Source of the DNA: Perkinsus olseni
Taxonomy: Eukaryota > Perkinsozoa > Perkinsida > Perkinsidae
Length of the DNA: 64,000 nt
Direction: 5' to 3'
Assembly: GCA_013115135.1 (NCBI GenBank)
Contig: JABANP010000115.1
Coordinates: 1 to 64,000, forward strand
In this document: piece by piece, positions 41,755 through 57,700 of the stretch
How the letters are laid out: each line of letters begins with the position of its first letter
Numbering within the stretch: position 1 is the first letter of the stretch
Notes under the pieces: generated by a model
What the model saw: only the letters and a program-made list of their open reading frames with translations
Databases searched by the model: none
Told to the model about the DNA's origin: nothing
Translations under genes and position numbers: made by a program

Positions 41755-44700
41755 ATGACCGAATCAACAGGTAGGTATCTTAGCTTCAAGCGTGTAAGAT
41801 ACAAAACAGGTCATATGGCTTCCCTTTCTCTGTAGCTAATGCAGCTCAAGCTTTACCTCGCTACTATGCGGATGTGAATGAGAAGCGGCCCAAGGAGTAC
41901 TGGGATTATGAAGCCCTCACCGTCAACTGGGGGTAATACAAAAACCGAGGTTCTTACGGACAATGGAAATTATTTTTCTGTATTTTTCCGTGGGGGGATT
42001 TTTCTCGAAACCAATGTGAGTAGGAGATCGTGCTTACTGATGATACTGAACCAGCAGAATTCTATCCGTATAAGTTCGCTGCATGCAACTCGTAAAAAGG
42101 CGATAATGGTCGCTGGTTCTTTAAGGAAGATTTTGTAGATCGTGGCGTTGTATGGTAGCGTGCTCGAAAGAATTTTGTCACGAGAGCGCGATACCACAAC
42201 TTTGTCGTCATTCGAGACGCGCCTGTCTCCTAGAGTGGTACCAGTCCTAACTGACTGGCCGACGTAGTAGAGTATAATGAGCTCCTCGTCCTGTGTTTCA
42301 CTTCGAAATGAGCGTTCTATCCTCTCTTTGGTGTATGATCGGTCTTCCTCAGGAACCAAGATAATTATGAAGTAATTCGGAAAATAGGACGCGGGAAGTA
42401 CTCTGAGGTTTTCGAGGGTAGTAGTGGCTTTCCTCGCTCTCCCGACCCGCCGCAGCTCCGTGGAATTTTCAGGCATCCGCGTGCCGACTGGCGAGAAGTG
42501 TGTCATAAAGATTCTCAAGCCGGTGAAGAAGAAGAAGATCAAGCGTGAGATCAAGATCTTGCAGAATCTTTGCGGGGGGACTAACGTCGTGGAGCTGTAT
42601 GATGTTGTGAGGGACCCGAACTCGAAGACACCAAGTCTGGTAAGGAATCATTATTTTGTCGATCGGAACCACTTCTGATGGTTGGGAAGAGAGATGCGGT
42701 TTTCCTTTACTCTTGATTTCGGCCGCTCTGTAGACCAACCATTTGGTAGGGTTTCGGAAATTGGCGATGGGTGTCCTGTTATCATAACAGCATTATCATA
42801 ATGATTCTGTATTAGAACTGTTATCTTACTTTTCTCATAATAGCATTATGTGTTGCCAATATTCGGACTCCGCACCAGGCTGGGGTGTAGCTCAGTACCT
42901 GCCGTCTCGAGGAGTTCTCTACAGCCTTGAGGCGCGCCATCTCTCCCGTTACCTGATCTCTTAGCCATGGAGGATATATCATGATAGCATGCTGGATCGT
43001 CATAACGATCGACGTGTCGATGAAATTGTCTGAGGGAATGCCTGCAAGGTGTGGCCTCCGCCATTATAACCGCGTTTTCGTACTGTGTAAAATGAGTTCC
43101 CCTTTGAGCTTTGCAGCACCGTGAGAAGCGCTTAGTATTGGTACTTGAATTTCTCAGTTCGATCGCTGCTACTGATTTTGTCGTCCTTGGTTCGCTCAGG
43201 TCTTCGAGTATGTTGACAACACCGACTTCAAAACCCTCTACCCGACTCTAACGGACATGGACATCAGGTGGGATCCTGCTGAGGGATGAATATCGATTAA
43301 AATGGCGAGCGCCAATTGCATCAGATACTACATGCGGGAGATATTGAAGGCCTTGGACTTCTGCCACTCTCAGGGTATAATGCACAGAGATGTGAAGCCA
43401 CATAACATTATGATCGGTAGGTCCCCGGTTCGATCCCGGCATGTTGCATTTGTGTGCATTTTTTCTCAGATCATGCGCATCGCAAGCTGCGTTTGATCGA
43501 TTGGGGCCTAGCAGAGTTCTACCATCCTCATAGAGAATACAACGTCCGAGTGGCCAGCAGGTAGTAACGGTGACGGGCCGTGAATTCGATTTCGATGGCG
43601 GTGGTGGAGGGCGCAACCTCGTACATGTTTACGGAAGTTTCCTTCCTAGTGGTCGGTATCGGTCTGCTGTGAGTAGGGGAAAATTTGGTATTAGAAATTC
43701 ACTCTCCTGCAGCGTTAAGAGAGACTGGCGGAATTACAGCTGGTCTAGTTCTGAATAGCGCTCGAGCTTCGAACTTGTGGAGGTCGGTCGTGTTTGTAGA
43801 TACTACAAGGGACCTGAGTTGTTGGTGGATCTTCAAACCTACGACTACTCTCTCGATATGTGGAGTCTCGGGTGCATGCTTGCCGGGATGACGTTTAGGC
43901 GAGAGCCATTCTTCCATGGTGAGCTGGAAGGGAAGAAGTCTTGAGGGAGATGGTAGAAGTAGATCATTGGGGGGGGGCGGTCAATAGACCGCAGCCTCTC
44001 CTGCATTCTGGGAACGCGTAGAAGATGATTGTGGGAGGGCCCTCGAAATTCTTTGGCGGGCTGTCTGTTAAAGGCCCGGCGAGGTTCGGAAACTTGTTAT
44101 GAGTGTCGTCGATTGGATGGTTCGTAGAAGTACTTAAATCCTATATTCACTGTATCACATCATTAATACCGCTTCTCGGTGGTTGGGAGTATCTTTGTGT
44201 GATTGTGCAGTCTCGGTGTGGTCAGGTCATGACAACTATGATCAATTGGTGAAGATCGCGCGCGTGTTGGGAACAGATGAGCTGTTTGAGTACTTGGACA
44301 AGTACGACTTAGGTAGGAAGGGAGTTGTGGTGTGATGGTTTCCGTCCGCTGTTAGTAGTCGAAAGGTTGTGGGTTCGATCCGGAGCAGTGGTATTTTATT
44401 TCAGACCTTGATCCTAACTTTGACGATATCCTAGGGAGGCACCCTCGGAAGCCTTGGCAGAAGTTCATCACAGCAGAGAACCAGCACTTGGTGAGGGCTC
44501 AAGTTGTGTTGGCGAATTGGCGTTTTTGGCTTGTTAAGTTAACGGAAACATTCAATAAGAATTCGTTCATGAAAATATTAATTATTAAGTCACTTTCACT
44601 ATGAGTATTTGACCAGGGGGTTATTTTCGGTGTTGTAACATTGATGTTATAGTACCCTGCCTTGCCCACTGTTCGATAAGACACTCGTGTAATTCAGCCT

Positions 44701-54777: not shown

Positions 54778-57700
54778 CTACTGTACAACAGCATTCCTAG
54801 TACGGTGTAGCTCGGTTGCCCGACCCGCCATGGTCCGCTGAAAATCTCGGATGAAAATAACCAGCGGCAGACCATTGCCTACCATGAGCCTTGACCTGGC
54901 TAACAGGTATCCCCAACGCTTGAGCAGCAGCCTCTTCTTCTCCCTTCTTTATCTGCCAAAGAATGTTGAGGAATCAGCAAGTGAGAGCAAGATAGCAAGA
55001 TTACCTGAACCTTCAGTCTTCGGCCTGTGCTGGTCATAAACCCGTCCATAGTATCACACGCCTTCATGGCGCTCCGGACTTCGTGGAATGACACAAATCC
55101 ATATCCCTTCGACTGGTTCGTCTGGGAGTCAATAATGACTCTGAGCGAAAAACGTCAATTTTCACAGCGGAGCGAAGCACCGAAATTCTCTCACCTTGTA
55201 GTGCTTATTGCTCCACACGAGCCGAATTCCCTCACGAGATCGCCATCAGTCCACTCCGGAGGGATATTATAAACGAAGACGTTTGCTGAGAAGGAGCGCA
55301 GAGAGTTCGACCATAGACGACTCCGTGAAGGATTCGATCATATAAGTCACGATCATAGACTAGCGCTGAGCGCTCCCCATTGCGCCCACAGTGTCCCCAT
55401 AGACGGGCCTCAAGAGTGACCCATGATAACTGCTGCGAGCTGTGACTTGTGACGAGGGAGCCGAAGCCCGAGAACGGAAGCAACACGAAGGAGTTTCGGC
55501 TGCCGCTTTTAACAATCTTCGCGAAACGCGTAATAAGATTTGGGAAAGGAGTGGTACTCCCAAAACACGTACTAATGGATCACCAAACCAGCACTCATAT
55601 TTCGTGATTGCGGTTGATTCAGCTGGGAGCGTGCTCATAAGTAACTCATCCATCCGATACAGTGATCCCGCTTCTGGGGGATGGGTTGACTCAATGGGTA
55701 GTGATGGTATACTACTATTAGCATGCTCCCTCCTCAGTTATACTTCTGCCCGTTCATAGAAAGTTGGTATATGAGCGCGTCTGGTGCTGCTCACGCAGCG
55801 TACCGCGCCTGTTAAAGCGGTTATGTCAAACATACCATAAAAAACGTAACGTCGCCCGTTGACGTGCACTCCCCAGTGAGCGTTGAGAACCCCGAATTCT
55901 ACCTCCCATAGGACCGTCCCTCCTCTGTTGCTGCGCCCGAGGCGTCTGCATCGGACCATACCCACCACCGTAACTACAATAGAAGGCGTATCTTTCATTC
56001 TGCGAAAGCCCATGACCGACCTCCGATCCTGTTGCTGGGGCTGGGGGGATGGAGCAGGCGGAGGACCCATGTTTTGAAACTGCCCAGAAGTTCGCGGTTT
56101 TATGGTATCAGAAACGAAATTATTACCTCGTAAGGAACGTCCCACTGTGTTTGACCAGTTCGTGCATTGTGATAGTAATACCGGCCGTCCGATTGGCTCA
56201 GATACCTGAAATTCACCAACTCGTCATGGCTCAATAGCAATACATCAGCTCCTTCCACTCAGCGGGGGGGGGTGTTCAATAGACCTGTTTCGAAACTCAC
56301 TAGCGCCTTTACGATCAATTTTAACGTGTAAAAGATAACCCTGGGCGCGCTGTTCGAACACAGGAGAGGTAGTCCGGTGAGAATCCAAAGTACTACTCGG
56401 TCCAATCGCCTGCTTGCCTCGGTTGAGCTGGTGGTCCCGGCGGCGGGGACTGAGCAAGAAAAGCGTCACAGGCGTGGCACGGCACACAGTCAGGCAAGCG
56501 AGCACCTCGCTACGTACCGGTCGCTGACGGAATCCTCCTGCCGGGCCCGGGCCGTAACCGCTGTCACCGTTATACCGATTGGCTGAGGACTGCTGTGAAC
56601 GCGACATGTCCATCTCCTGTCGATGAGCGTCTCTGAATGGGGAAAAGTACGGCCACATAATCGTGCGTGAAAATGTCACGATTTTCATCCTCAAAACTAC
56701 GGAAAGCAAAAACCTACGATTCACTCCGACGTTTTTCAGAAACCGTTTCCGAGAAGATAACGTTGCATTCAACGGGTTCGGAAAACAGTAATTCAAAAAT
56801 CGCTTCGCTCCGCCTAATACCTCTGCTCCTTCGTCTCTGCACATTTCACTGCAAGTGGACGGTCGTTGTTCGGGAAGGTGAACTTGTCATTCAACGCATC
56901 AATCGCTCGAAGGGCGTCGGATTTCTTCGAGAACCTGCGAGAGGTCCCCGGTTCGATTCCCGGCCCCTCCATTTTAACACCCTATCACCTCACAAAGGCC
57001 GCTCTATTTCCTCCAGGTCTCCTCGGTTGAATACAGTAAGCTTCTGTAACCGTACCATACCTGAATTTCCACAACTCCCGCGATGCACGGGCGATATTGA
57101 CAAGAACCTACTCGCTAAAAACTTTCCTCAGTTCGCCATCATCCACTTCGGCCGGTACCTGATCACCATCCCCAGACATCCTGACCGCAGCTCCTCGACC
57201 AGCTCTGGGACGCCCAAGATAGAGACCAACGAGGAAGAGTCATATCATGCTGTAACGATAGATTTGGTTCCACTTAATCGTAGCCACTGTAATGCTTGCT
57301 TGCGTAGTCCAGTGTACTGTCACGTGTACTAAATAATCGTCATAAACCCGAAAACGATTGGACAAACTTCAGGTATAACGTTTTTCATCTGTGTCGCATC
57401 TCGTAACGATCAAACATAGCTCGATGCACCACAATCCCGACCAAGGACCATTCTACCGGGAGGCTCTGTACAAGCCGAAGCTCTAGTTAAACCGTTGCAT
57501 TACGTTGGCCACGAATAGCTTCTGAGCCACTCCTTCCGTGTCATCAGGAAGTCCCAGCCTTTCTGGCTCACCATTGGCGTACTGTATTTGAAGAGGGCCG
57601 GCACTCTGAGGAATATGGTAATATATTTCCAGATGAAGGATTAGAACCCTGGTCATGTGCGTGACAGCCTGACATTCTACCATCAGCCCACTAGTACCTC

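Follow-up and report, generated by a model that had tools for sequence, protein, structure and literature searches.

Short introns with tRNA-like, B-box-containing cores in Perkinsus olseni: candidates for an old introner-like family

The stretch of DNA analysed here (the window, 64,000 nucleotides, positions 1 to 64,000 of contig JABANP010000115.1 in assembly GCA_013115135.1) stems from Perkinsus olseni, a parasite of clam and abalone. It carries a CK2 alpha gene on the plus strand and a CELF-like RRM gene on the minus strand, in which four short introns, one of them probable, contain tRNA-like sequence. The CK2 alpha intron at 43417..43469 (53 bp) has a tRNA 3'-half-like core in sense orientation (30.6 bits at 43413-43453) and the donor GTAGGTC, and the one at 44313..44404 (92 bp) has a longer tRNA-like body, also in sense (25.7 bits at 44358-44398). 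In the CELF-like gene the intron at 56935..56988 (54 bp) holds a core at 56936-56976 (40.3 bits) that lies on the plus strand and hence antisense to the gene, while the probable intron at 57606..57697 (92 bp) resembles a near full-length, decayed tRNA in sense (15.9 bits at 57622-57662). Scores in bits refer to a 41-column profile that was trained on loci outside the window and used with a cut-off of 15 bits. The four lengths are those of the original prediction, which was made from the sequence of the window and had considered all four borders secure. For 43417-43469, 44313-44404 and 56935-56988 intron status is supported by homology. The spliced CK2 exons align without a gap to the best PDB match, the CK2 alpha chain 3u87 (residues 1-216), and an NCBI protein of P. 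olseni (P0001) represents the CK2 form with both tRNA-like introns removed (100% identity, 221 residues); a tRNA-like core is present in two of the six CK2 introns read in the window gene. Removal of 56935-56988 yields an RRM match from residue 9 to residue 51, which spans the junction at residue 31 (E 6e-5, above the Pfam cut-off). Once 57606-57697 is taken out, there is a weak RRM match (E 0.065, which is below the cut-off); it stops at residue 30, with the junction at residue 33. This sequence is probably an intron, as judged by the reading frame and by its resemblance to the others.

The resemblance to tRNA was assessed with a library of 22 tRNA genes of this genome. This library is partial in all comparisons given here: it includes several near-identical Tyr genes and lacks several isotypes (Cys, Gln, His, Met, Trp and others). 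The library score of each of the four introns was reached by none of 200 letter shuffles, and the profile finds 12 places of at least 15 bits in the window, compared to 0.3 on average in 20 dinucleotide-shuffled versions. The claim that the introns are mostly tRNA-like holds for those confirmed by homology. The near-complete Asp-GTC-like and Asn-GTT-like bodies that had been proposed for the 92-bp introns were recovered in part: the 5' part alone of 57606-57697 matches Asp-GTC best, with marginal significance (p 0.025), and the 5' part of 44313-44404 is best matched, again marginally, by Ala-CGC (p 0.035). Taken as wholes, 57606-57697 is best aligned, along its length, with Glu-CTC (z 6.8) and 44313-44404 with Arg-CCG (z 3.5). 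The tRNA-like sequences of the window are not tRNA genes; ARAGORN called no tRNA in the window, and the Rfam tRNA family is absent among 17 window matches at E values up to 10. Two of the cores, at 15414 and 56912, coincide with partial matches to transfer-messenger RNA (E 3.1 and 4.2).

The same core is abundant in the searched genome (61.5 Mb in 968 contigs, of which C19 begins with the window). The exact T-arm/B-box core, GGTTCGANTCC, has 1835 genome matches, to which tRNA arrays contribute a part, compared to 155 for the reversed pattern. Among the first 100 core places listed, on contigs C1 to C25 (≈4.5 Mb by summed lengths, some of them estimated), about 11 are tRNA genes or array members, and extrapolation suggests roughly 1,200 dispersed non-tRNA copies genome-wide. 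Among the 29 loci scanned first, four contain a tRNA according to ARAGORN, and of 60 further loci four have one at the core itself. For a conservation profile, six of the 100 places on C25 and three in the window were left out, and tRNA genes, array members and near-duplicates were dropped, which reduced 88 copies to 78. In these 78 non-tRNA, non-redundant copies a stretch from -12 to +26 around the core is conserved and nothing beyond it. It comprises, in this order, the 3' strand of the anticodon stem, an AGGTC variable loop, the T-arm, the 3' strand of the acceptor stem, the discriminator A and a T-run. A motif of 26 positions has 338 genome matches at up to three mismatches and none in the control. 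The column frequencies of the element correlate with those of the 22 library genes in register (r 0.84) and hardly when shifted by one to three columns (r at most 0.25). At the level of sequence we regard the short introns of P. olseni that have a tRNA-like core as a real and abundant class, and the claim that many such introns with differing arms occur in the genome is supported. The tRNA genes of this species also stand in very long tandem arrays (C13:182003-195476, C84:71980-80150, C96, C137, C172:58499-73245, C305:211-19892 and C778), with a spacing of ≈141 bp for Ala, ≈169 bp for Val and ≈239 bp for Asp in scores of copies, and with Lys-, Asn- and Tyr-like genes in a composite unit of 1.2 kb. 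The tRNA-Tyr-like genes among loci L100-L126 have a GTA anticodon region that is broken by a short variable insert and are given odd anticodons by ARAGORN; they are apparently intron-containing tRNA-Tyr genes.

Whether such elements form introns outside the window was examined at 26 loci, picked by eye, which provided 27 peptides. In 11 of the 27 a homology match spans the junction once the candidate intron is removed; these introns measure 47-70 bp, eight with the element in sense and three in antisense. Pfam matches of this kind were obtained for HATPase (L044), SNF2 (L045) and eIF4E (L036/L037), for a TPP enzyme with one sense and one antisense intron (L033) and for a FAD-binding protein with an antisense intron (L077), and those to a response regulator (L016), an alpha/beta hydrolase (L040) and an ankyrin protein (L092) are below the curated Pfam cut-off (E 4e-5, 7e-5 and 2e-3, respectively). 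SMC4 (L057, antisense) and PRPP synthetase (L177) are based on matches to the PDB and are the only locus peptides that were compared to it. When the antisense intron of L033 was removed as well and the peptide was extended upstream, the E value fell from 3e-4 to 1e-13. The PDB alignment of L057 has one extra residue at the junction, which would vanish if the next CAG, three bases on, were used. The remaining 16 peptides gave no match, or one far below the cut-off or short of the junction; L178 and L182, with junction-spanning Pfam matches at E 0.05-0.07, far below the cut-off, are not counted among the 11. By homology, intron status is thereby shown in 14 cases, three in the window and 11 elsewhere, in both orientations. 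Among 111 elements of the window and the fetched loci, 30 are closely enclosed by a good donor and a good acceptor in sense and 13 in antisense; the control means are 6.3 (the highest of 200 draws being 12) and 4.2 (highest 11), respectively. Scoring of coding potential was too weak as an intron test (22 of 78 at a score of at least 10 in sense compared to 9.8 expected, and 7 compared to 5.9 in antisense).

Part of the splice signals appears to be provided by the element itself. GTAA starts at position -17 in 8 of 135 elements, compared to 0.3 per other offset, and in tRNA numbering this position lies in the anticodon loop (two anticodon bases followed by A37 and A38). GTAG at -10, reading GTAGGTC, is likewise found in 8 of 135 elements (0.7 per other offset). 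When 13 elements were dropped as repeats or tRNA-like, as was also done for the tests of arm linkage and left flanks described below, the preferred donor positions were unchanged (GTAA at -17 in 8 of the 122 left). Preferred donor positions within the element are thus shown by sequence counts, whereas the position of the acceptor relative to the element varies. In sense introns the T-run stands ahead of AG; where the element is antisense, this place is often taken by GACCT, which is complementary to AGGTC. The proposal that the T-run of the Pol III (RNA polymerase III) terminator serves as polypyrimidine tract could accordingly apply to the sense cases, where it precedes the 3' splice site; it is impossible for 56935-56988, because the core is antisense to the gene, and since several introns are antisense the idea is not general.

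When the positions of the T-loop were freed in the search pattern, 265 matches were found and none in the control. In the 86 matches listed of these 265, position 56 is C throughout, position 57 is G (79) or A (7) and position 54 is T (74), A (9) or G (3), while all four bases occur at stem position 51. The B-box of Pol III genes follows the rule GWTCRANNC, and the T-loop pattern of the elements appears to obey it. Such a constraint is compatible with two alternatives, a B-box on which the spread of the element depended and one that is used in place.

We favour the first of these alternatives and consider it to have nearly, if not quite, an even chance of being correct: the elements would form an old family, introner-like and of tRNA ancestry, in which the B-box was retained and which contributes splice signals. 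P. olseni would harbour an old population of tRNA-like elements of about 40 bp, reaching from the 3' strand of the anticodon stem to the T-run, besides rarer longer forms. They would have entered genes in either orientation, many would now make up entire introns of about 43-75 bp, and they would act like introners. In sense, the donor would often be taken from the anticodon loop (GTAA followed by five nucleotides and AGGTC) or from GTAGGTC, and the T-run would be the pyrimidine tract before AG; in antisense, GACCT would sit before AG. The dispersal of elements with a common consensus is shown by the genome matches. We infer that they moved as copies, perhaps shortened at the 5' end, of a Pol III-related, tRNA-derived RNA or DNA, that their insertion created the introns and that the T-run is used in splicing. 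A more far-reaching version is that a tRNA-derived class of introners, namely 3'-half elements that were free to lose the RNA fold while the B-box was retained, gave rise to a considerable fraction of the introns in this parasite, with the anticodon loop turned into a 5' splice site, the Pol III terminator turned into a pyrimidine tract and both orientations spliced; this we put forward as tentative and rather doubtful.

Several observations weigh against a family that spread by copying. An A-box upstream of the core is not clearly enriched (12 of 135 elements reach at least 6 bits, three of them tRNA-Tyr-like, compared to 4 in the control), and no target-site duplications were detected in 33 sense and 21 antisense candidates called by rule, some of them in both sets, in which matches were as frequent as in permutations. 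Linkage between the left and the right arm across the T-loop is weak (Mantel z 3.1, compared to at least 13 in simulated decayed tRNA copies), and the consensus matches of the two arms correlate with r 0.28 in 78 copies and with r -0.05 in the 70 that remain without chance matches. Similar left flanks exceed shuffles only moderately (12 pairs with at least 10 of 14 identical positions compared to 3.05, maximum 6, and none with at least 12 of 14, repeats removed). An empty allele was not found either: all six second copies keep the intron, and 23 of 29 junctions have no second copy. Paralogues without the intron do exist. The SNF2 paralogue on C113 (42% identity) has no stop over residues 24-91 and no intron at the site; the eIF4E paralogue on C458 (56%, 70 codons for 70 residues) likewise lacks it, and at weaker eIF4E-like places on C316 and C150 the alignment also crosses the site without an intron. 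This absence can reflect loss as well as gain. An apparent excess of near-identical left flanks (8 pairs with at least 12 of 14) was gone after removal of a long repeat family and of tRNA-like loci, and this loss led us to grade the introner-like interpretation slightly down and the selection of functional sites, discussed below, slightly up. The repeat family concerned (L025, L074, L171, L172 and L176) is longer and dispersed, with the structure CACTGCACGCGAG... core ...TTCCGTCAAAA, and has the same tRNA-like core inside; the CACTGCACGCGAG/TTCCGTCAAAA family may be a relative or the source of the short elements. A young family of single origin was rejected as the whole answer, as the arms are nearly unlinked.

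The strongest alternative is that the cores are functional sites, i.e. extended Pol III B-boxes of tRNA ancestry that are selected for binding of TFIIIC or another DNA-binding protein, and that the introns of about 50 bp have shrunk to the site and the splice signals. We consider this possible but not probable. It would account for the site-specific constraint of the T-loop according to the B-box rule with a free stem position 51, for the occurrence of both orientations and for the weak signs of copying, and it is in line with the failure to find pairing at the RNA level, an A-box or target-site duplications. However, second copies vary inside the element as much as around it, and no clear conservation in place is apparent: in 16 pairs, 21 of 623 element sites differ (3.4%) compared to 63 of 2256 in the left (2.8%) and 98 of 2319 in the right flank (4.2%), a set in which several pairs were chosen for an exact core in both copies and which is underpowered for a test of purifying selection. 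Nor would the T-run and the discriminator be expected for a bare B-box site. Some homologous contigs (C8/C134, C7/C340, C20/C192 and C77/C78) differ by a few percent and represent alleles or recent duplicates that were kept apart in the assembly.

According to the original prediction each intron is a decayed and often 5'-truncated copy of one of many ordinary tRNA genes. We regard this as improbable, and for the half-type introns the claim was not borne out. In 71 elements 96 T-stem pairs are formed compared to 101.4 ± 5.2 expected under random assortment, while each of the three outer T-stem pairs forms in all 22 library genes, which served as positive control. (The 78 copies were reduced to 71 for the T-stem and library-arm tests and to 70 for the consensus correlation, by two different rules for chance matches.) Pairing is likewise at the random level in 83 high-consensus strings, taken from 100 listed motif matches of the 338 with duplicates removed by eye, and T-stem pairing was not found in shifted registers either. 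Decay of CpG as the cause of the unpaired stems was set aside, since CpG is undepleted in the window (0.96). Simulated decay of tRNA does not jointly yield low pairing, low library match and a sharp consensus; to arrive at the observed library match and pairing, the tRNAs would have to decay by roughly 35-50%, but the sharpness of the consensus corresponds to about 10%. Some findings do point to copies of individual tRNA genes. The full-length intron at 57606, with its lengthwise alignment to tRNA-Glu, appears closer to this model than the others, L081 and L094 resemble tRNA-Leu (20 and 19 of 23 positions outside the core), and L012, L030 and L097 each have an Asp-like anticodon arm (CTGTCA) upstream. 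Swapping arms between elements slightly lowers the library match, from 14.27 to 14.10 of 23 (about two standard deviations, in a set that includes two true Tyr-like genes). Taken together, the lack of stem pairing, the failure to trace the elements to the partial library and the nearly unlinked arms indicate that present tRNA genes are not, by simple fragmentation, the source of the half-type introns.

A further model assumes mosaic insertions: reverse transcripts of tRNA 3' fragments would switch template in the T-loop and be captured at breaks in exons, joining arms of different tRNAs. The modified A58 of the tRNA T-loop stops reverse transcriptases. Variation is linked inside each arm (left z 8.3, right z 5.6) and barely across the T-loop; among the matches listed, right-arm types recur with different left arms. 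Against this, single arms do not match the partial library clearly better than column-shuffled sequences do (z 1.9 and 0.4), and we consider the model very unlikely. Chimeras of present-day tRNAs were rejected, as neither arm matches the partial library. That ordinary introns resemble a T-arm by chance is hardly credible: short introns with canonical borders are normal in Perkinsus, and in P. marinus most are shorter than 100 bp according to the available text of PMC3101222, but chance is contradicted by the excess of cores both in the window (12 compared to 0.3) and in the genome (338 compared to none).

The origin of new spliceosomal introns is an old question, and the introners known so far mostly derive from DNA transposons. 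If the introner-like interpretation is true, a tRNA-like source of Pol III type would be a new route of intron gain; the shared B-box core could be counted across Perkinsus species, and gain could be tested by presence or absence of the core. If the core is instead a selected TFIIIC-type site, many short introns would be regulatory or architectural, which would be equally surprising. Short interspersed elements (SINEs) derived from tRNA are dispersed and have a Pol III A-box and B-box, a tRNA-like part, a T-run and a body or tail. The P. olseni element shares with them the B-box, the T-run, the tRNA-like part and the dispersal, but it measures only about 40 bp, mostly lacks an A-box, has neither body nor tail, and target-site duplications were not found. 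Extra-TFIIIC (ETC) sites are B-boxes without an A-box away from tRNA genes. In this respect the P. olseni cores are alike; they differ by their location in short introns and by the 3' features of a tRNA, and binding of TFIIIC to them is putative. With introners (Gozashti et al. 2022, PMC9860276) they have in common the many related short introns, the element-borne splice signals and the host, an aquatic protist. Some of the families described in the available part of that survey lack target-site duplications or terminal inverted repeats; most are consistent with DNA transposition, in contrast to the tRNA- and B-box-like, highly diverged core of P. olseni that occurs in both orientations. The words 'tRNA', 'SINE' and 'Perkinsus' do not occur in the main text of the survey. 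Amoebophrya is likewise an alveolate parasite with repeated intronic elements. According to the available text of PMC7789003 its elements have inverted repeats of 8-20 nucleotides, are bordered by direct repeats and mostly use non-canonical splice sites, whereas the P. olseni introns have GT-AG borders and direct repeats were not found in them. Neither of these two texts, as far as available, mentions tRNA-like introners, and in open-licence literature 'Perkinsus' and 'introner' occur together only in the Amoebophrya paper. Dada DNA transposons insert into tRNA genes of P. marinus (PMC3706591, available text), which is a connection to tRNA in the same genus; these are kilobase-sized transposons inside tRNA genes and not introns of about 50 bp. 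In the main texts of the open-licence literature searched, we found neither tRNA-like introners nor selected TFIIIC-type sites in introns described.

The remaining cores of the window lie mostly on the plus strand. The original prediction had named four similar introns, of which three contain the element: a candidate intron of 51 bp at 15402..15452 (GTGAG..CTCAG) encloses a core of 40.1 bits, a 3'-half-like core at 15084..15124 (24.1 bits) lies within the proposed intron 15020-15191, and 13818..13871 overlaps a core at 13815-13855 (23.9 bits); it ends in GAG and has doubtful borders. The fourth, 14688-14963, has a marginal core at 14751..14791 (plus strand, 13.4 bits), a score of which about one is expected by chance. 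A 3'-half-like core at 13217..13257 (23.0 bits) had not been reported. Weaker cores are present on the same strand at 23695..23735 (20.0 bits) and at 16379..16419 (17.4 bits, followed by a T-run and TTCAG), and two borderline cores are on the minus strand (11030..11070, 15.5 bits, and 58836..58876, 15.1 bits). Near-perfect inverted repeats at 53037-53106 and 10145-10195 fold as long hairpins and gave the best Rfam matches, which are microRNA-like and sub-threshold. On the minus strand, four related open reading frames of 247, 246, 175 and 246 amino acids, with a hydrophobic stretch, stand in tandem at 26711-34884 and form a local gene family.

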